Shown here: positions 7,493-64,000 of the stretch, one piece after another
Position numbering within the stretch: the first letter of the stretch is position 1
Layout of the letters: every line of letters starts with the position of its first letter
Source of the DNA: Nocardioides sp. SYSU D00065
Lineage (GTDB): Bacteria; Actinomycetota; Actinomycetes; Propionibacteriales; Nocardioidaceae
Assembly (NCBI RefSeq): GCF_017916425.1
Contig: NZ_JAFMSX010000001.1
Span: 1 to 64,000, forward strand
Direction of reading: 5' to 3'
DNA: 64,000 bases
Position numbers and translations under genes: made by a program
Notes under the pieces: generated by a model
What the model was told of the DNA's origin: nothing
Seen by the model: only the letters and a program-made list of their open reading frames with translations
The model's database searches: none

Positions 7493-8639
7493 GAGCTGTA
7501 GGCGCTGTTCTCGTGGACGTAGGCGTGGGTGAGGTCGTTGGTCCAGACGGTGGCGCGGGCGTCGCCGGACTTGAGGTCGATCGTCACGCTGACCTCACGG
7601 CCGGTGAGGTCGACGCCCGCCGGGTCCTCCGCCGGTGTGGACTGCCGGCACACCCACACGCCGTTCATCGCGACGTCGAGGTCGGCCGGGTCGAACCGGG
7701 CCGAGGTGGTGCCGATGCTGGCCAGCACGCGGCCCCAGTTGGGGTCGTTGCCGTAGATGGCGGCCTTGAAGAGGTTGCTGCGCGCGACGCTGCGGCTGAC
7801 CTCGACCGCCTCTTCCTCGGTGGCGGCGTGCAGCGTGGTGATCGCGATCTCGTGATCGGCGCCCTCGGCGTCGGCGAGCAGCTGCATGGCGAGGTCGGTG
7901 CAGGCCTGGGTGAGGGCGGCGGTGAAGTCCTCCGGCGTCGGGGTGATCCCGCTGGCGCCGCTGGCCATGACGGTGACGGTGTCGTTGGTGGACATGCAGC
8001 CGTCGGAGTCGAGCCGGTCGAAGCTGACCCGGGTGGCGGCGCGCAGGGCGGCGTCGAGCTCGGCGGCGGGCACGACGGCGTCGGTGGTCAGCACCACGAG
8101 CATCGTGGCGAGCTGGGGCGCGAGCATGCCCGCACCCTTCGCCATGCCGCCGATGGACCAACCGGCACCCTCGACCACGACGTTCTTGCTGACGGAGTCG
8201 GTCGTCATGATCGCCTGCGCGGCGGCCGCTCCCCCGTCGGGTCCGAGGGCGGCCGTGGCGGCCTCGACGCCCGCCAGCAGGCGGTCGCGGTCGTTGGCGA
8301 GCCCGATCAGGCCGGTGGAGCAGACCACGACGTCGATCGCTCCGATGCCGAGGCCCTCGGCGACCTTCTCCGCCACGGCGTGCGTGGTCTGGAACCCCTC
8401 GGGCCCGGTGTAGCAGTTGGCGCCGCCGGAGTTCAGCACGACGGCGCGCACGACGCCGTCCTTGACGACCTCCTGGCTCCACAGGACGGGGTTGGCCTTG
8501 CAGCGGTTGGCGGTGAAGACGGTGGCGGAGTCGTAGGCGGGGCCCTGGTTGACGACCAGGGCGAGGTCGGGGGCGCCGGTGGACTTGAGTCCGGCGGCGA
8601 CGCCGGCGGCGGTGAAGCCGGCTGGATGGGTGACGGTCA

Positions 8640-53334: not shown

Positions 53335-55426
<2,092 letters not shown>

Positions 55427-55460
55427 GCCCCACGGTCTCAGCCCACGCCGCTCCCCTGCC

Positions 55461-56903
55461 TCACCCCTGGGCGGACGCCGCCTCCTGCAGCGCGCGCCAG
55501 GTGCGGTCCACGTCCGCCTGCGTGGTGCGCCAGCTGCCGACCGCCAGCCGGATCGCCGCGCGACCGGCGACCGTGGTGTGGCTCAGGTACGCCTCGCCGG
55601 AGGCGTTGACCGCCTCCATCGCCGCCAGGGTCTGCTCGTCGCCGGCCCGCAGCCGGAACACGACCAGCGACAGCGCGGGCTCGGTGACCATCTCGAACCG
55701 GTCGTCGGCGGCCACCAGGTCGGCCACGTGCTGGGCGAGGGCGATGCCGCTGCGGACGTGGCTGCGCAGGCCGGACAGTCCGTACGTGCGCAGCACCGCC
55801 CACAGCTTCAGCGCACGGAACCGCCGGCCCAGCTGCGGGTGCCAGTCGCGGTAGTCGACGACCTCGCCCGACTCGGTGGCCGCGTTGCGCAGGTACTCCG
55901 GCAGGATCGACATCGCGCCGGTCAGGGCCGCACGGTCGCGGACCCAGAAGGTGCTGCAGTCGAAGGTCGTGAGCAGCCACTTGTGCGGGTTGGTGACGAA
56001 GGAGTCGGCGGCCTCGAGCCCGGCGAGGTGCTCACGGTGCTCGGGACAGACCGCGGCGACACCCGCCCACGCCGCGTCGACGTGAACCCACGTGCCGTGC
56101 TCGCGGACCGCCTCGGCGACCGCGCCGATGTCGTCCATCGCGCCGGTCGAGGTGCTCCCGGACGCGACGTGCACCATCACCGGTCGCAAGCCCGCTGCCA
56201 CGTCCTCGCGGATCGCGGCACCCAGCGCGGCCACGTCCATGGCCTGCGTGGCGGGATCCACCGCGACGGTGCGCACGGCGTCCTCCCCCAGCCCCGCCAT
56301 CATCGCGGCCTTGACCAGCGACGAGTGCGCCTCCGTGGACCCGTACACCCGCCAGCCGCCGGCGCCGACGCCGTGGCGGCGCACCTGGCCCCCGCTGGCG
56401 CGGTGCAGCGCCGCGAGCAGCGCGGTGAAGGTGGCCGTCGACGCGGTGTCCTGGACGACGCCGCCGCCGGGACCGTCGCTGCGGAAGGCGGCAGGGAGGC
56501 CGAGCGCGTCCGCGAGCCAGTCGAGCACGACCTGCTCCACCTCGGTCACGGCGGGGCTGGTCGCCCAGATCATCCCCTGCGCCCCGATGCCGCTGGAGAG
56601 CAGGTCGCCGAGGATCGCGGCGGGCGAGGAGTTGGCCGGGAAGTAGGCGAAGAACCGCGGGTGCTGCCAGTGGGTGAGCCCGGGCACGACGACGCGGTCG
56701 AGGTCGGCCAGCAGCGCGTCGAACGGCTCGCCCTCCTCCGGCGCGGCGGCCGGCAGCAGGCGGCGTACGTCGCCGGGCGCGACCTGGGCGCGCACCGGCA
56801 GGTCCTCGAGCGAGGCCCAGTAGTCGGCGATCCAGTCGATGGCGGCGTGCCCGTGGCGGCGGAACTCCTCGGGCGTCAGGTGGCCTGTCGTCTCGTCCGG
56901 CAT
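55461..56903 (-). CDS. Group II PLP-dependent decarboxylase (aromatic-L-amino-acid decarboxylase-like)
   Basis: A 480-aa enzyme of the DDC/TDC group. Substrate and cofactor marks: HPRFFAYFPANSSPAAILGD, GIGAQGMIWATSPAVTEVEQ, HVDAAWAGVAAVCPE and the PLP lysine in FVTNPHKWLLTTFDCS. It could decarboxylate DOPA, 5-hydroxytryptophan, tryptophan or tyrosine; no biosynthetic partner lies nearby. Start ATG 56903, TACGTT 6 nt upstream (leaderless). Confidence 0.9.
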   Translation of the reverse strand: MPDETTGHLTPEEFRRHGHAAIDWIADYWASLEDLPVRAQVAPGDVRRLLPAAAPEEGEPFDALLADLDRVVVPGLTHWQHPRFFAYFPANSSPAAILGDLLSSGIGAQGMIWATSPAVTEVEQVVLDWLADALGLPAAFRSDGPGGGVVQDTASTATFTALLAALHRASGGQVRRHGVGAGGWRVYGSTEAHSSLVKAAMMAGLGEDAVRTVAVDPATQAMDVAALGAAIREDVAAGLRPVMVHVASGSTSTGAMDDIGAVAEAVREHGTWVHVDAAWAGVAAVCPEHREHLAGLEAADSFVTNPHKWLLTTFDCSTFWVRDRAALTGAMSILPEYLRNAATESGEVVDYRDWHPQLGRRFRALKLWAVLRTYGLSGLRSHVRSGIALAQHVADLVAADDRFEMVTEPALSLVVFRLRAGDEQTLAAMEAVNASGEAYLSHTTVAGRAAIRLAVGSWRTTQADVDRTWRALQEAASAQG

Positions 56904-56999
56904 GGCCCGAACGTACCGGTGCGGTCGGGTAGGCGTACTCAGGGGCGATCGGGTAGCGGGACAGGTCCCGCAGCGGCCGTCACGGACGACGGTTGAGCC

Positions 57000-57287
57000 A
57001 TGACGACTCCCACTCCCACCAAGAACACCAACGCCTTCTTCCTGCAGGCCGGCATCTCGTTCGCCGTCGCGCTGCTCACCATGATCTTCGCGATCTTCTA
57101 CCTGCCCGTCGACCCGTGGATCCGCGCCTTCCTCGGCCTCGGCACGATGTTCCTCACCACCTCCAGCTTCACGCTCGCCAAGTGCGTGCGCGACGCCCAG
57201 GACGACAACTACGTCGTCACCCGCCTCGACCAGGCTCGCGTCGACAAGATCCTCGCCGAGCACGACCCGTTCCGGTCCGTGTCCTGA
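57000..57287 (+). CDS. YiaA/YiaB-family inner membrane protein
   Basis: A 95-aa protein with two TM helices (about 14-34 and 42-60) and a C-terminal cytosolic segment, CVRDAQDDNYVVTRLDQARV. It matches the YiaA/YiaB two-helix domain; function unknown. Transcribed divergently from the decarboxylase and ends at a strong terminator. Confidence 0.88.
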   Translation: MTTPTPTKNTNAFFLQAGISFAVALLTMIFAIFYLPVDPWIRAFLGLGTMFLTTSSFTLAKCVRDAQDDNYVVTRLDQARVDKILAEHDPFRSVS

Positions 57288-57299
57288 CCCTCCGGCACC

Positions 57300-57325
57300 G
57301 ACGTCCCCGCTGCGGCGGGGACGTC
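57300..57325. terminator. Bidirectional terminator
   Basis: A perfect 11-bp stem GACGTCCCCGC/GCGGGGACGTC with loop TGCG, between the convergent yiaA-like stop (57287) and the acyl-CoA dehydrogenase stop (57347). It acts on both strands; no T-run on either. Confidence 0.85.
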
Positions 57326-57346
57326 GTCATGTCCGGGCGGGCCGCG

Positions 57347-58561
57347 TCACTTCAGCTCGGCGCTGGTGAGCCCCAGGACCCGGCGGGCCACGATCAGCTG
57401 CTGGATCTGCTGGGTGCCCTCGAAGATGTCGAGGATCTTGGAGTCGCGGGCCCACTTCTCGAGCAGCTCGGCCTCGCTGTAGCCGAGCGTGCCGCACAGC
57501 TGGACGCACGACAGCGTCACGTCGGAGCCCACCCGGCCCGCCTTCGCCTTGGCCATCGACGCCTCGAGCGAGTTGGGCCGGCGGTTGTCGGCCATCCACG
57601 CGGCCTGCATCATCAGCAGCCTGGCGCCCTCCCAGTCGGCCTCGAGCCGGAGGTACGTCGCGGCGGCGGCCGACTGCGCCTGCCCCGGCCGGTCGTAGTC
57701 GATGACGACCCCGGCCTGCTCGAGCAGGTCGCGGGTGAGGTCGAGCGAGGCGCGGGCGCAGCCGACGGCCATCGCGGCGACCAGCGGCCGGGTGTTGTCG
57801 AAGGTGGCCATCGCACCGGCGAAGCCGGAGCTGGGGTCGATCTCCGGCGAGCCGAGCAGGTCCTCGGCCGGCACCCGGCAGTCGGTGAGGGTGATCGCGG
57901 CGGTGTCGGAGGCGCGGATGCCCAGCTTGTGCTCGAGCCGCTCGACCCGGAGTCCTGGGTTGTCCTTGCGGACCAGGAAGGGCTTGATCGCCGCCCGGCC
58001 GAGCTCCCTGTCGAGCGTCGCCCACACCACGACGCTGTCGGCGCGGTCGCCGGAGGTGACGTAGATCTTCTCGCCGTTGATGACGTAGTCGTCGCCGTCG
58101 CGGACGGCGGTGGTGGTGATGTTGGCCGAGTCCGACCCGGTGCCGGGCTCGGTGATCGCCATCGCGGCCCACGTGCCGCGGTAGCGCTCGAGCTGCTCCT
58201 CGTTGGCGACCGAGGCAATCGCGGAGTTGCCCAGTCCCTGACGCGGCATCGACAGCAGCAGCGCCGTGTCGCCCCAGCACATCTCCGCGACGCTCAGCAC
58301 GGACGCCAGATGGGCGCCGTTGCGCACCCGGTCCCCATCGATGGGCGCGGTGTCGCGCCGTACGCCGCCCGCGCCGGCGCCGCCGGTGGCCCCGGTCTCG
58401 GACACGCCGTCGATGAGCGCGGCGAGCATGTCGAGCTCCTTGGGGTAGGCGTGCTCGGCGCGGTCGTACGTGCGCGAGATGGGGCGCAGCATGTTCATCG
58501 CGAGCTGGTGCGCCTGGTCCACCAGGCCCGCGTGCTTCTTCGGGATCTCGAGGTTGATCAT
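57347..58561 (-). CDS. Acyl-CoA dehydrogenase, first of a coupled pair
   Basis: A 404-aa FAD flavoenzyme. MAITEPGTGSDSANITTTA is the FAD/acyl-CoA loop and FEGTQQIQ at the end carries the catalytic Glu. An internal Gly/Ala-rich insertion sits near residues 55-75. Start ATG 58561 shares one base with the upstream dehydrogenase stop (TGATG), so both are cotranslated. It probably acts on branched or long acyl-CoA. Confidence 0.92.
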   Translation of the reverse strand: MINLEIPKKHAGLVDQAHQLAMNMLRPISRTYDRAEHAYPKELDMLAALIDGVSETGATGGAGAGGVRRDTAPIDGDRVRNGAHLASVLSVAEMCWGDTALLLSMPRQGLGNSAIASVANEEQLERYRGTWAAMAITEPGTGSDSANITTTAVRDGDDYVINGEKIYVTSGDRADSVVVWATLDRELGRAAIKPFLVRKDNPGLRVERLEHKLGIRASDTAAITLTDCRVPAEDLLGSPEIDPSSGFAGAMATFDNTRPLVAAMAVGCARASLDLTRDLLEQAGVVIDYDRPGQAQSAAAATYLRLEADWEGARLLMMQAAWMADNRRPNSLEASMAKAKAGRVGSDVTLSCVQLCGTLGYSEAELLEKWARDSKILDIFEGTQQIQQLIVARRVLGLTSAELK

Positions 58562-59922
58562 CAGACGAGGACCGCGCCTTCCATGAGACCGACGGCCCGC
58601 AGGTCGCGGTACCACCGCTCGACCGGGTGTTCCTTGACGAAGCCGTGGCCGCCGAGCAGCTGCACGCCGTCGAGGCCGATCCGCATGCCCTTGTCCGCGC
58701 ACAGCTGGCGGGCCAGCGCGACCTCGCGGGCGAAGTCCTCGCCGCGGGCGGCGCGCGAGGCGGCCTTCCACGTCACGAGCCGCATCGCCTGCAGCTCGAT
58801 CGCGATGTCGGCCACCATGAACGCCACCGACTGCCGATGGCTGATCGGCTCGCCGAACGCCTGCCGCTCGTTGACGTAGTCCTTGACGTGGTCCAGCACG
58901 GCTTGGCCGGTGCCGACCGCGAGCGCGCACCAGGCGAGCCGCGACAGGCGGACGCACTGGGCGTACGCCGTGCCCTCGGCGTCGCCGAGCAGCGCGTCCG
59001 GCTCGAGACGTACGCCGGTCAGGTGCAGGCGCGACAGCCCGGCGGCACGCAGACCCATCGACGGATCGCCCTCGACCTCGAGCCCGGGAGTGCCCGACTC
59101 GACGAGGAAGAGGGCGGGCGCGCCGTCGAGCCGGGCGGCCACCACGAACAGCTCCGCCTCGGCGCCGCGCACGACGGCGGACTTCACCCCGTCGAGGACG
59201 AAGCCGTCGCCGTCGCGCAACGCTGTGGTGGCGGGCTCGAACGGGTCGAAGAGCACGCTCGGCTCGGCGATGGCCAGGGCGGCGGCCGGGACGTCGCTGC
59301 CGGTGAAGGCCGGGAGGTAGGTCTGCTGCTGGGCCTCGGTGCCCCACAGGCCGATCGCGGTCGCGACGGCGCCCGGCGCCATCGCAGCGACGGCGAGGCC
59401 CATGTCGCCGTGGGCGAGCGCCTCGGCGACGAGGGTGCCGGCCATCGCCGACCGCTCCTCCATGATGCCGCCCAGCTCCTCGGGGACGCCGAGGCCGGGC
59501 AGCCCGAGCTCCTGGGCGGCGGCGAGGACCTCCTGCGGAGCGGCGCAGGCCTCGTCGGCGGCGGAGGCCGCGGGCCGCAGCACCTCGTCGGCCAGCTCGC
59601 GCACCACCTCCAGGAGCATGCGCTCGTCCTCGGTCGGGGTGAGGTCGAAGACACCGCGCGACGCGGCCCTCGCCGGGCGGGCGCCGGGTCTGCGCGCGCC
59701 GGTCCGGGCGAAGGTCCGCCCGGCCGCGGTGACCACTCGGAAGCCGTTGCGCGTGGCCGAGTAGACGGCCTGCTCGGCCTGCCGGCGCAGCCCGACGCGG
59801 TCGATCAGGTCACTCTGGGCGACCCGGCTGACGGCCGCGACGGCGAGGCCGATCGCGTCGCGGGTCTCGCGGGTGGACAACCCGTGACGACCGCCCGGCC
59901 GAAGGCTGCTGAGGAAGGACAT
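58561..59922 (-). CDS. Acyl-CoA dehydrogenase with N-terminal extension, second of the pair
   Basis: A 453-aa ACAD-fold protein. The first 90 residues are a basic, Ala/Arg-rich extension outside the fold. LAIAEPSVLFDPFEPATTAL replaces the usual EPxxGSD loop, and the catalytic Glu is probably in GLMEGAVLV at the very C-terminus. Because the flavin loop is unusual, it may pair with the product of the next gene as a heteromer, as described for the mycobacterial ChsE4-ChsE5 pair. Start ATG 59922 lies 6 nt after TACATT, within a palindromic operator. Confidence 0.87.
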   Translation of the reverse strand: MSFLSSLRPGGRHGLSTRETRDAIGLAVAAVSRVAQSDLIDRVGLRRQAEQAVYSATRNGFRVVTAAGRTFARTGARRPGARPARAASRGVFDLTPTEDERMLLEVVRELADEVLRPAASAADEACAAPQEVLAAAQELGLPGLGVPEELGGIMEERSAMAGTLVAEALAHGDMGLAVAAMAPGAVATAIGLWGTEAQQQTYLPAFTGSDVPAAALAIAEPSVLFDPFEPATTALRDGDGFVLDGVKSAVVRGAEAELFVVAARLDGAPALFLVESGTPGLEVEGDPSMGLRAAGLSRLHLTGVRLEPDALLGDAEGTAYAQCVRLSRLAWCALAVGTGQAVLDHVKDYVNERQAFGEPISHRQSVAFMVADIAIELQAMRLVTWKAASRAARGEDFAREVALARQLCADKGMRIGLDGVQLLGGHGFVKEHPVERWYRDLRAVGLMEGAVLV

Positions 59923-59930
59923 GCCCTGAA

Positions 59931-59947
59931 TGTAACTTCGAGTTACA
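59931..59947. promoter_or_regulatory. 17-bp palindrome over the acyl-CoA dehydrogenase promoter (TetR-type operator)
   Basis: TGTAACT-TCG-AGTTACA has perfect 7-bp arms around a 3-bp centre. On the minus strand it overlaps the -10 (TACATT/TTACAT) placed 6-7 nt before ATG 59922. GTAACT half sites are typical of TetR regulators of fatty-acid and acyl-CoA dehydrogenase genes in actinobacteria. No TetR gene is within the window, so the regulator is encoded elsewhere. Confidence 0.7.
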
Positions 59948-60031
59948 CCGCTTGGCCAGCGCCTGGTCACGAGCTGTCGCGGGACCGACCGGACACGTGA
60001 CGCGCTCGGTGTGCTGGCTAGGATCCACGGC

Positions 60032-60625
60032 ATGCCCGACCCGCAGCCCACCCACGTGCGCGCGCCGCACGGTCCCCTGCCCGAGGGCGGCACGGTGCGT
60101 CCGATCACCCGCTGGGGGACGCCCGTCATGCACCGCCCGCAGGCGGCAGTGACGACGTACGACGACGCGCTCGCGTCCCTGGCCGCCGACATGGTGGCGA
60201 CGATGTACGCCGCCGACGGCGTCGGCCTGGCCGCCTGCCAGGTGGGCGAGGACCTCGCGATGTTCGTCTTCGACTGCCCCGACGAGGAGGGCGTGCGCAC
60301 CGTCGGCGTCGTGTGCAACCCGGTGCTGACGCTGCCCGAGGGCAAGGACCGCCGCCTCGACGACGACGACGAGGGCTGCCTGTCCTTCCCCGGCTCGTTC
60401 GAGTCGTGCGCCCGGCCGAGCTGGGCCCGGGTGGACGGACAGGGCCTCGACGGCGAGCCGGTGTCCTTCGAGGGCGACGGGATGCTGGCGCGCTGCCTGC
60501 AGCACGAGACCGACCACACGCTCGGCACCGTGTTCGGCGACCGGCTCTCGGCCAAGGCGCGCAAGCGGCTGGGCAAGAAGCACGACGCCGCCGCAGCCGA
60601 CTACCCGCCCGGCTGGCCGGCCTGA
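60032..60625 (+). CDS. def: Peptide deformylase
   Basis: Removes formyl groups from nascent N-termini. The 197-aa protein has all three motifs: GVGLAACQVG, EGCLSFPG and QHETDHTLG (metal His residues and catalytic Glu). The start ATG 60032 (MPDPQPTHVRAP) has TAGGAT seven nt upstream, so leaderless; the ATG at 60011 would be non-conserved. Divergent from the acyl-CoA dehydrogenase operon. Confidence 0.94.
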   Translation: MPDPQPTHVRAPHGPLPEGGTVRPITRWGTPVMHRPQAAVTTYDDALASLAADMVATMYAADGVGLAACQVGEDLAMFVFDCPDEEGVRTVGVVCNPVLTLPEGKDRRLDDDDEGCLSFPGSFESCARPSWARVDGQGLDGEPVSFEGDGMLARCLQHETDHTLGTVFGDRLSAKARKRLGKKHDAAAADYPPGWPA

Positions 60626-60632
60626 GGCAACG

Positions 60633-61424
60633 ATGACCGAGCTGCGGATCACCCGGGAGAACGCCCGCTTCCAGCAGTGGGAGGCGCTGCTCACCAACCG
60701 GTCCAAGCGGCACCGCAACCGCGAGTTCCTGGTGCAGGGCGTCCGCCCGATCACCCGCGTGGTCGAGGAGGGGTGGCCCGTGCGGGCGCTCCTGCGGGCG
60801 GACGGCGCCGCGTCGTCCTGGTCCGACGAGCTCTGGGCCAGCACCCGGGCCGAGCGGGTCGTGCTCTCCCCCGCGCTGCACGCCCGGCTCAGCGGCAAGG
60901 AGGGGGCCGAGCTCGTCGCGGTGGTCGAGATGCCGGAGGACGGCGTGGCCCGGCTCGGCGACTCCCGGCGCGAGCACGGACCGGTCGTGGTCTTCGACCG
61001 CCCCACCAGTCCGGGCAACATCGGCACGCTGGCACGCTCGGCCGACGCGTTCGGCGCCTCCGCCCTCGTGGTGACCGGCCACGCGGCCGACCCCTACGAC
61101 CCGCAGGCGGTCCGCGCCAGCACCGGCTCGCTGTTCGCCCTGACCATCCTGCGCGTGCCCGGTCCCGGGCCCGTCGTCGAGCACGCCCACGCCCACGGCT
61201 ACCGCATCGTCGGCACGGACGAGCAGGGCAGCCCGCTCGCCGAGGTCGACCTGGGCGGTCGCGTGGTGCTCGTCGTCGGCAACGAGACGGCCGGTCTTTC
61301 CTCGGGCTGGCGTGCGGCGTGCGACGACATCGTCAGCATCCCGATGGTGGGCACGGCCTCCTCGCTCAACGTGGCGGTGGCGGGCTCGATCGTGCTGCAC
61401 GAGGCGCTGCGGCAGCGCGGCTGA
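60633..61424 (+). CDS. TrmH/SpoU-family RNA methyltransferase
   Basis: A 263-aa SPOUT methylase. Substrate-binding N-domain NREFLVQGVRPITR; catalytic motifs DRPTSPGNIGTLARSADAFG, VLVVGNETAGLS and IPMVGTASSLNVAVAGSIVL. It lies 7 nt after def and is probably cotranscribed. It is convergent with another TrmH-family gene 48 bp away. tRNA or rRNA target not determinable. Confidence 0.85.
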   Translation: MTELRITRENARFQQWEALLTNRSKRHRNREFLVQGVRPITRVVEEGWPVRALLRADGAASSWSDELWASTRAERVVLSPALHARLSGKEGAELVAVVEMPEDGVARLGDSRREHGPVVVFDRPTSPGNIGTLARSADAFGASALVVTGHAADPYDPQAVRASTGSLFALTILRVPGPGPVVEHAHAHGYRIVGTDEQGSPLAEVDLGGRVVLVVGNETAGLSSGWRAACDDIVSIPMVGTASSLNVAVAGSIVLHEALRQRG

Positions 61425-61471
61425 GCGACGCGGCGCAAACCGGCACAGGTGGGACGCCGGGTGCGGCAGCC

Positions 61472-62275
61472 TCAGCGGCGCGCAGCCGCGTAGCAGGCGA
61501 CAGCCGTAGCGGCTGCGACGTTGAGGGAGTCGATGCCGGCGCGCATCGGGATGATCGCGCGTCGCTCGGCGGTCGCCTCCCAGCGCGACGACAGGCCGTG
61601 CCCCTCCGATCCCAGCACCAACGCGAGGCGGTCGACCCCCTCGACGGCCTCCTCGATCGGCCGCGCGTCGGGGGCGAGCGTCAGCGCGACGGTCGTGAAG
61701 CCGCGCCGCGCGAGGTCGGGCAGGGCGTCGTACCAGTCCGGGAGCCGCGTCCACGGCGTGGTGAACACCGCGCCCATGCCGACCTTGATGGAGCGCCGGT
61801 ACAGCGGGTCGGCGCAGCGGGGTGCGAGCACCACCGCGTCGAAGCCGAGCGCCGCACCCGAGCGGAAGATCGCACCGACGTTGGTGTGGTCGACGAGGTC
61901 CTCCAGCACGAGGACCGACCTGGCGCCGTCCAGTACCTCGTCGAGCGGCGGCAGCGGTCGCCGCCGGAGGGAGGCCAGGGCGCCGCGGTGCACGTGGAAC
62001 CCGGTGACCTGCTCGATCAGCGCCTCCGGCAGGACGTAGCACGGTCCATCGCTGCGGTCGAGGACGTCGCCGAGGCCCTCGAGCCACCGCGGCGCCATCA
62101 GGAAGGAGCGCGCCTCGTAGCCGGCCTCGACCGCACGTCGCACCACCTTCCCCCCCTCGGCGAGGAAGAGCCCGTGCTCGGCCTCGAGGTGCTTGCGGAG
62201 CTCGACGTCGCGCAGGTCGCGGTAGTCGCCGAGCCTGGGGTCGCCGGCATCGGAGATCTCGACGAGGTCAGCCAC
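61472..62275 (-). CDS. TrmH/SpoU-family RNA methyltransferase (second copy, convergent)
   Basis: A 267-aa SPOUT methylase with the N-domain GLFLAEGGKVVRRAVEAG and catalytic motifs LEDLVDHTNVGAIFRSGAAL, LVLGSEGHGLSS and IPMRAGIDSLNVAAATAVAC. It overlaps the CobA-type gene by 8 nt and is translated with it. Sequence similarity with the gene at 60633 is limited to the motifs, so these are family paralogues rather than a recent duplication. Confidence 0.87.
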   Translation of the reverse strand: MADLVEISDAGDPRLGDYRDLRDVELRKHLEAEHGLFLAEGGKVVRRAVEAGYEARSFLMAPRWLEGLGDVLDRSDGPCYVLPEALIEQVTGFHVHRGALASLRRRPLPPLDEVLDGARSVLVLEDLVDHTNVGAIFRSGAALGFDAVVLAPRCADPLYRRSIKVGMGAVFTTPWTRLPDWYDALPDLARRGFTTVALTLAPDARPIEEAVEGVDRLALVLGSEGHGLSSRWEATAERRAIIPMRAGIDSLNVAAATAVACYAAARR

Positions 62276-63515
62276 GCCCGTAGTGTGCCGGACGGGCCAC
62301 GGCCACCACGTCGCCGACGACGATGATGGCCGGCGGGACGACTCGGTGGGCGACGAGGTCGTCGGCCAGCGAGCCGAGCGTGGTGAGGACGGTGCGCTCG
62401 GTCGGCATGGTGCCGTCGACGACGACGGCGACCGGCGTGTCGGCCGAGCGGCCGCCGGCCAGCAGCGCGGCGGCGATCGACGGGGCGTTGTCGACGGCCA
62501 TCAGGAGCACCAGCGTGCCGCGGAGGCGCGCGAGCGCGTCCCAGGCGACCAGGGAGTCGGGATGGCCGGGCGGCAGGTGGCCGGACACGACGGTGAACTC
62601 GTGGGCCACCCCGCGGTGGGTCACTGGGATGCCGACCCGTGCCGGGACCGCGATGGCGGAGGTCAGGCCGGGCACGACGGTGACCGGCACGTCGGCGCCG
62701 GCACAGGCCAGCAGCTCCTCAAAGCCTCGCCCGAAGACGAAGTTGTCACCCCCCTTGAAGCGCACCACCCGCTTGCCGGCACGGGCCCGGTCGACGATCA
62801 CCTCGTTGATCGTGTCCTGCGAGGCCGAGCGCCCACGAGGCAGCTTCGCCACGTCGATCAGCTCGACGTGGGCCGGGAGCTCGTCGAGCAGCTCGCGTGG
62901 AGCGAGCCGGTCGGCGACCACCACGTCGGCCGAGGCGAGCGCATGGCGAGCGGCCACCGTGACCAGCTCGGGCTCACCGGGCCCGCCGCCCACGAGGACC
63001 ACGCCCGGCGTGCGGTCGAGGGCGTCGGAGGCGGTGAGGTGGCCGTCGCGCAGCGCCGTGATGATGTCGTCGCGCAGGGCGGCGGACTTCTGCGGCTCGC
63101 GGTTGCCGAGCACGCCGACGCTCACGCTGCCGTGGTGCCCGACGGCCGGTGTCCAGGCGGTGCCGCCGAGCGCGTCGTCGCTGCGGACGCAGAAGGTGTG
63201 GCGGCTCTCGGCCGCCTCGGCGACCTGAGCGTTGACGTCGCCGTCGTCCGTCGCCGCGATGACGTACCACGCGCCGTCGAGGTCGGACTCGACGAAGTCG
63301 CGCTGCACCCACGTCAGCTCGCCGGCGAGACCCTCGATCGCCGGGGTCACCTCCGGACTGATGACGGTCACGTCGGCCCCGGTCGCGAGGAGTGCGGGCA
63401 GGCGCCGCTGGGCGACGTGGCCGCCGCCGACCACGACGACCTTGCGACCGGCCAGCACCAGCCCGGCCAGGTAGGGGCGGTCCACAGGGGCAGGAGTCGA
63501 TCCGTTCTCACGCAC
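62268..63515 (-). CDS. cobA: Uroporphyrinogen-III C-methyltransferase with siroheme-synthase-like N-terminus
   Basis: A 415-aa fusion. The N-terminal half has the precorrin-2 dehydrogenase fold (GRKVVVVGGGHVAQRRL, then YVIAATDDGDVNAQVAEAA). The C-terminal half is a SAM-dependent tetrapyrrole methylase (VLVGGGPGEPELVTVAARH, VVADRLAP, VVRFKGGDNFVFGRG and VVPGLTSAIAVPA). It makes precorrin-2 and leads to siroheme or cobalamin. I chose GTG 63515 with GACAAT 5 nt upstream; the longer frame to 63545 seems unlikely. Confidence 0.9.
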   Translation of the reverse strand: MRENGSTPAPVDRPYLAGLVLAGRKVVVVGGGHVAQRRLPALLATGADVTVISPEVTPAIEGLAGELTWVQRDFVESDLDGAWYVIAATDDGDVNAQVAEAAESRHTFCVRSDDALGGTAWTPAVGHHGSVSVGVLGNREPQKSAALRDDIITALRDGHLTASDALDRTPGVVLVGGGPGEPELVTVAARHALASADVVVADRLAPRELLDELPAHVELIDVAKLPRGRSASQDTINEVIVDRARAGKRVVRFKGGDNFVFGRGFEELLACAGADVPVTVVPGLTSAIAVPARVGIPVTHRGVAHEFTVVSGHLPPGHPDSLVAWDALARLRGTLVLLMAVDNAPSIAAALLAGGRSADTPVAVVVDGTMPTERTVLTTLGSLADDLVAHRVVPPAIIVVGDVVAVARPAHYGRG

Positions 63516-63564
63516 GGTGCATTGTCGCTGGCCACCGGCTGGCACCGATGGCTAGGTTCGAGGG

Positions 63565-64000
63565 ATGAGCACCTCGCGAACAGGCCTCGAGCGCCCCGTG
63601 GCGCCCAATCCGTACGACCTGCTGCCGGCGACCGCGTCGTTCACCCTCACCAGCGACGACGTCACCGACGGCGCCCCGCTCCAGGACGAGCAGGTCGCCG
63701 CTCACGGCAACACCTCGCCGCAGCTCAGCTGGTCCGGCGCCCCCGAGGGCACGCGGTCCTACGTCGTGACCTGCTTCGACCCGGACGCGCCGACCCCGAG
63801 CGGGTTCTGGCACTGGTGCCTGGTCGACCTCCCGGCCGACGTCACCTCGCTCGACGCCGGGGCGGCCTCGCGTCCACTTCCGGGCAGCGCGTTCCACGTG
63901 CGCAACGACGGGGGCGAGAAGGGCTTCATGGGGGCCGCACCGCCGCCGGGCGACCAGCCGCATCGCTACTTCTTCGTGGTGCACGCGGTGGGCGAGGACT
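63565..64000 (+). CDS. YbhB/YbcL-family PEBP protein (cut by the window edge)
   Basis: At least 145 codons are visible. [40 protein letters not shown] and the C-terminal part of the fold [11 protein letters not shown] match the phosphatidylethanolamine-binding / Raf-kinase-inhibitor-like family (YbhB/YbcL). The bacterial role is unclear. ATG 63565 lies 6 nt after TAGGTT. Divergent from the CobA-type gene; the 3' end is off the window. Confidence 0.88.

Follow-up and report, generated by a model that had tools for sequence, protein, structure and literature searches.

A conserved palindrome over a Nocardioides acyl-CoA dehydrogenase promoter is probably the operator of a TetR repressor encoded in trans

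We analysed a 64,000-nucleotide stretch of DNA (the window) from a Nocardioides-type genome and found that a 17-nucleotide palindrome in front of two acyl-CoA dehydrogenase genes (fadE-fadE) probably belongs to a TetR repressor encoded elsewhere on the chromosome, which would silence this operon and govern a small lipid regulon. Comparison among relatives supports a TetR-type repressor acting in trans as the best explanation of the site; binding, repression, ligand and leaderless start are the parts of this proposal that we infer. The result would link an orphan operator to one particular orphan TetR gene and to a lipid regulon that varies by lineage across an actinobacterial family. Compared with an earlier sequence-only reading of the same DNA, what is new is a named candidate repressor and a record of site and gene co-occurring and co-decaying.

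Results

The palindrome overlaps a putative leaderless promoter

The sequence-only reading had described a perfect TetR-like palindrome over the -10 element of a leaderless operon of two acyl-CoA dehydrogenases, with no regulator nearby, and each of these elements was recovered (Table 1). In the 17-mer TGTAACTTCGAGTTACA the 7-bp arms TGTAACT and AGTTACA pair at 7/7 positions around an asymmetric 3-nt centre, and 100 shuffles of the window yielded a mean of 0.00 matches at ≤3 mismatches. TACATT overlaps the site, and its location at -12 to -7 from the A of the ATG fits a leaderless promoter with a presumptive transcription start at that codon. The first dehydrogenase carries the N, M and C acyl-CoA dehydrogenase domains, about 95 residues preceding the first of them; the second, whose start overlaps the stop of the first, has the M and C domains over the cut-off and the N domain unreported. 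By eye, no regulator was recognised among the open reading frames of 54000-64000, and all 22 TetR_N matches in the genome fall outside the window.

Table 1. Coordinates of the operator, promoter and operon within the window.
Feature	Position	Strand	Basis
Operator, 7-3-7 palindrome TGTAACT-TCG-AGTTACA	59931..59947	.	Sequence and conservation in relatives
Predicted -10 element TACATT, overlapping the operator	59929..59934	-	Located at -12 to -7 relative to the ATG; TANNNT in 30/30 related loci
ATG of acyl-CoA dehydrogenase 1	59920..59922	-	8 nt from the operator; putatively leaderless
Acyl-CoA dehydrogenase 1 (P0001, 453 aa)	58561..59922	-	Pfam domains
Acyl-CoA dehydrogenase 2 (P0002, 404 aa)	57347..58561	-	Pfam domains

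The operator is conserved in relatives

Using the first dehydrogenase as query we found 35 loci, 30 of them at 68-87% identity (all titled Nocardioides, except for two MAGs titled Actinomycetota) and 5 more distant. The site had been expected upstream of orthologous operons, and it stands directly 5' of the start codon in all 30 loci at 68-87% identity, with 28 exact copies and 2 carrying one mismatch. Its distance from the ATG is 8 nt in 26 of these loci and 9 nt in 4, and the TANNNT element reads TACATT in 20, TACAGT in 8, TACCTT in 1 and TACGTT in 1. The operator thus contains a -10 element 8-9 nt 5' of the ATG, and a bound protein would therefore block the leaderless promoter. It was missing upstream in the other five loci, namely one from Nocardia at 57% identity and four distant relatives at 28-32%. 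At the Nocardia jejuensis relative (57% identity, L062), two tandem perfect copies of CTTACTCTGGAGTAAG lie just upstream at 7850-7865 and 7871-7886.

When the window is included, the 31 sequences show no variation at operator positions 1-7 and 11-16, and position 17 is A in 29. Given the -10 element within the site, one might ask whether the promoter alone is conserved here, without any protein operator, but 13/14 arm positions are invariant in the 31 sequences, which is more than a -10 requires, the same palindrome stands at different spacings before other genes, and a relative that has lost the palindrome (G095, see below) has kept the spacing and TANNNT; we consider conservation of the promoter alone scarcely credible. 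The palindrome is very probably a genuine control switch for the two fat-burning genes. At the scale of the family, 252 of 294 sampled genomes hold at least one match at ≤1 mismatch, as against 6 for the reversed control (manual table count), part of the matches in a few genomes being dispersed repeats.

A candidate TetR gene co-occurs and co-decays with the site

The repressor that had been postulated to act in trans now has a candidate on comparative grounds, namely co-occurrence and co-decay with the site. The gene (G000 C1:183049-183753, + strand, 234 aa) lies outside the window, 123 kb from the operator, and is the TetR_N match nearest to it on the contig. The N terminus of its product matches the helix-turn-helix family PF00440 (TetR_N) with 58.7 bits (cut-off 24), and no NCBIfam model exceeded its own cut-off: the FasR equivalog NF053731 scored 46.7 bits over residues 21-110 only (cut-off 330), the Bacillus-type FadR and PsrA models 29.7 and 28.3 bits (cut-offs 200 and 300) and the mycofactocin regulator MftR, TIGR03968, 31.7 bits (cut-off 224.9). 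A sequence search for a close solved structure found none, the PDB matches (best E 1.6e-11) being largely confined to the DNA-binding part. The recognition helix VG[IV]NRAI[IV]YRHF was found in 38/38 rows (37 genes).

Nine of these 22 TetR genes, and in addition one MarR, were profiled across the relatives by a search that scored only the best first-look candidates per genome (11 in the searches with the candidate and with the DesT-like protein described below), so that single absences may be misses. The candidate was present in 263 of the 294 genomes at E ≤ 1e-20; among the 31 genomes scored as TetR-less, 20 are named in the table and the other 11 were derived by elimination and recounted. 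Site and TetR occur together in 250 genomes and are both absent from 29, while 13 have the TetR only and 2 the site only, the latter being G169 (71% complete) and G173 (58% complete). The corresponding Fisher p of 1e-27 ignores relatedness and, the genomes being kin, is not a probability. The candidate alone among the nine TetR proteins fits the distribution of the site. Within the 168 same-genus genomes, G217 is the sole one without the site and also the sole one without the TetR, and joint within-genus absences of both were also found in genera g5, g11, g19, g23 and g24.

Ten within-genus losses of the TetR were checked (G217, G074, G083, G055, G068, G073, G095, G119, G058 and G041). Seven of these genomes had no fadE match at E ≤ 1e-60 and say little, because where fadE is gone the site is trivially lost as well. 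The other three (G074, G083 and G095) keep fadE, and none of them retains the site: the best match upstream of fadE has 7 mismatches in G074 and 6 in G083, and in G095 the 17-mer located 8 nt from the ATG has 5 mismatches and its palindrome is gone, TAGATT still fitting TANNNT. The G095 promoter, from genus g5, was compared here with the Nocardioides loci, and the three genomes may represent only two independent events. Conversely, 7 of the 13 genomes with the TetR only were examined, all from g19 and with fadE, and all seven keep a degenerate palindrome upstream of this gene, with 2 mismatches in G069, 3 in G097 and G080, and 4 in G091, G100, G094 and G147. Positions 7 and 11 have changed together in G100, G094 and G147, the arms in G147 again forming a perfect palindrome; the recognition helix of G100 is unchanged and thus does not explain the paired arm change in that genome. 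The remaining six (G017, G026, G149, G151, G161 and G163) are 62-88% complete.

By eye, the candidate gene is flanked in its own genome by a DNA-ligase-like gene on one side and DUF1206-, nusB- and efp-like genes on the other, and no target gene was recognised beside it. In G023 the TetR gene adjoins fadA2-fabG4-MaoC (thiolase, SDR and MaoC domains) and a one-mismatch site stands right before its start; it also adjoins fadA2 in G091, G069 and G100, and in G109 the two are separated by one SDR gene. No operator at ≤3 mismatches was found near the TetR gene in 30 loci (this genome and 29 others), and autoregulation is therefore not general.

With just nine of the 22 TetR genes profiled, the site might instead be the operator of another regulator with the same distribution, either one of the 13 other TetRs of this genome or a member of another family. 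We judge this unlikely, as the site co-decays with the candidate TetR, which in addition has a site before it in G023 and is a neighbour, immediate or close, of fadA2, a gene that is probably a target too.

Other regulators of the genome and its relatives

We take the TetR encoded at C2:953496-954050 to be DesT/FabR-like and that at C2:810753 to be FasR-like. Both would belong to fatty-acid TetR families, and the targets in relatives include desaturase genes and genes that look FAS-I-like by eye, so that either could be imagined to bind the operator. At least 19 site-bearing genomes of the same genus, however, gave no match to the DesT-like protein, which is present in site-less g19 genomes, whereas the FasR-like protein is present in 13/13 test genomes, with or without sites, and the 25-mer given for M. 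tuberculosis FasR in the available text of its description does not contain this palindrome (PMC7382501). Binding by either of the two is very improbable.

Even less probable is that the operator is bound by the MarR encoded directly 3' of fadE-fadE in genus g19. The gene order fadE-fadE-marR in g19 loci would suggest such a link, but this MarR was found in G074 and G083, neither of which has a remaining site, had no match in G037, a genome with four sites, and its best match in the genome analysed here is 34% identical. The g19 loci have another palindrome, GATAC-N5-GTATC, which is perfect in the TetR-less genomes G074 and G083; it would suit this MarR better and is possibly its operator. Of 25 g19 fadE loci, some of them from one genome, 21 have this motif at ≤2 mismatches close to the TetR site (for instance L339 1442-1456, L341 1432-1446 and L342 2838-2852), and it occurs at ≤1 mismatch in 0/30 Nocardioides-type loci within 200 bp upstream.

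Further TetR proteins were rejected. For the one encoded beside the reductase-desaturase operon in L132 no orthologue was found among the TetR loci of this genome (best 45% over 56 aa), that of L015 is present in 12/13 test genomes, one copy being interrupted, and those of L018, L022, L025, L029 and L031 had no or weak (<40% identity) matches in at least three of six site-bearing test genomes. The TetR at C1:183049 remains the preferred candidate.

Other sites and a putative lipid regulon

A search of the whole 3.87 Mb genome with TGTAACTNNNAGTTACA, as the sequence-only reading had suggested, returned one exact place, which is the site described here, one place at 1 mismatch and 7 at 3 mismatches, totalling 9 places at ≤3 mismatches. 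The reversed control also gave 7 places at 3 mismatches, and because the two counts are equal such places are no evidence by themselves. The one-mismatch site, TGCAACTGGGAGTTACA, overlaps the stop codon of the preceding gene, its centre lying 38 nt before the start of a flavin monooxygenase gene (FMO-like by Pfam, presumably EthA-like). In ten relatives, picked because each had several sites, the orthologous gene (78-83% identity) has a site centred at 39 nt, exact in 7 and with one mismatch in 3. A single three-mismatch place, TTGCACTCCCAGTTACA, was retained because the same gap in a relative (L211) holds the one-mismatch site TGTCACTCCGAGTTACA; it lies between divergent genes that we take to be fadA2-like and fabG4-like and that share 73% and 71% identity with their G023 counterparts. 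No clear site was found in the fadA2/fabG4 gap of L334 and L131, where the best matches have 4 and 7 mismatches.

Genus g19 has sites in front of a reductase/fatty-acid desaturase operon, of an acyl-CoA ligase gene and of a secretory lipase (LIP) gene, the domains having been checked in one example each, and one site also precedes a gene that is FAS-I-like by eye (L124). Certain sites precede genes without a recognisable lipid tie (for example L121, L125 and L207), and a WS/DGAT label given by eye to the target in L210 was dropped, since it had no Pfam match. The earlier proposal of a small regulon of acyl-CoA genes elsewhere was supported, with a difference in scale: further copies do stand near lipid genes, but the larger acyl-CoA and lipid set is found in relatives and not in this genome, where the regulon looks very small, with one exact, one one-mismatch and one degenerate site.

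Ten same-genus genomes (L193-L202, position 4001) carry a one-mismatch site in front of an ECF sigma factor gene, with a gene classed by eye as HAD-phosphatase-like on its other side. The start assigned to the sigma factor gene by the ORF caller lies 42-76 nt from the site in 9/10, the sigma domains having been checked in one; neither of the two sites at ≤1 mismatch in the genome analysed here is at this location.

Repeated elements were also noted. Genomes with 15-31 matches (G162, G177, G200 and G203, with places listed, and G242 and G270, with counts) contain mostly TGTAACACTTAGTTACA and TGTAACCCTTAGTTACA repeats, in part as pairs 62 or about 175-210 bp apart, which we regard as a dispersed repeat and not as operators. 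Large regulons in such genomes were accordingly rejected: in the four with places listed, one exact site is accompanied by TGTAACACTTAGTTACA-type repeats, which make up the extra matches. The genome analysed here contains three copies of a MITE-like element of about 72 bp with the terminal inverted repeats TGTAACGCCGTGTTACTGC...GCAGTAACACGGCGTTACA (L003/L004, C1:919855-919926; L006/L007, C1:1557258-1557329; L008, around C2:1111802); in the L003 copy the 22-nt arms are 100% complementary.

Discussion

We propose that a TetR dimer bound to the operator would mask the -10 element of the putatively leaderless promoter of fadE-fadE, block RNA polymerase and so keep the operon off. An acyl-CoA or a fatty acid, a ligand suggested by the kind of target genes, would free the operator when fatty acids are due for oxidation. 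One TetR would thus run a lipid regulon whose membership differs by lineage, comprising fadE-fadE, the EthA-like flavin monooxygenase and fadA2/fabG4, joined in relatives by a desaturase and its reductase, an acyl-CoA ligase and secreted lipases.

Comparison with known systems

In M. tuberculosis, fas-acpS is regulated by the TetR protein FasR (Rv3208), whose DNA binding is, according to the available text, disrupted by long-chain acyl-CoA (PMC7382501). It is of the same family as our candidate, and one relative studied here has a site at a FAS-I-like gene (by eye, L124), but FasR is an activator of synthesis and has another site. Moreover, the presumed FasR-like gene of this genome (C2:810753) encodes a separate TetR that does not track the site. 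MadR (Rv0472c), which regulates desaturase genes in mycobacteria, is another member of the TetR family. The accessible part of its description gives a binding consensus TCTGTGxxxxxxxGT in the desA1 and desA2 promoters (PMC8872791). Control by acyl-CoA, stated for MadR in an abstract, and desaturase genes are common points, whereas the consensus and the targets differ. PsrA and FadR-type TetRs repress fatty-acid oxidation genes from a promoter palindrome, but their operator differs from the one described here and the candidate TetR falls far below their NCBIfam cut-offs.

In M. tuberculosis, Rv0238 presumably lies near htdX-fabG4-fadA2, a likeness of gene order with the TetR beside fadA2-fabG4-MaoC in G023, and we assume fadE24-fadE23 to be the mycobacterial counterpart of the fadE-fadE operon. 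We tentatively suggest, as a possibility that is somewhat less than even, that the candidate TetR is the Nocardioidaceae orthologue of Rv0238, which would then control fadE24-fadE23 and fadA2/fabG4/htdX via a related ACTC-GAGT palindrome. The literature searched, as far as its text was available, reports no operator for Rv0238, and searches of the open PMC literature, which leaves most subscription papers aside, found in the available text no description of the present operator or of TetR control of this operon (PMC7652896, PMC7851686, PMC7324645 and PMC12687858 included). fadE23 and fadE24 are described as induced in an rv0158 mutant in the accessible part of one study (PMC10501769), and another, likewise available in part, names Rv0238 among five TetR regulators that every mycobacterium it analysed, M. 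leprae included, has conserved (PMC4482099). If the mycobacterial link is true, it would provide a function for a regulator conserved even in M. leprae.
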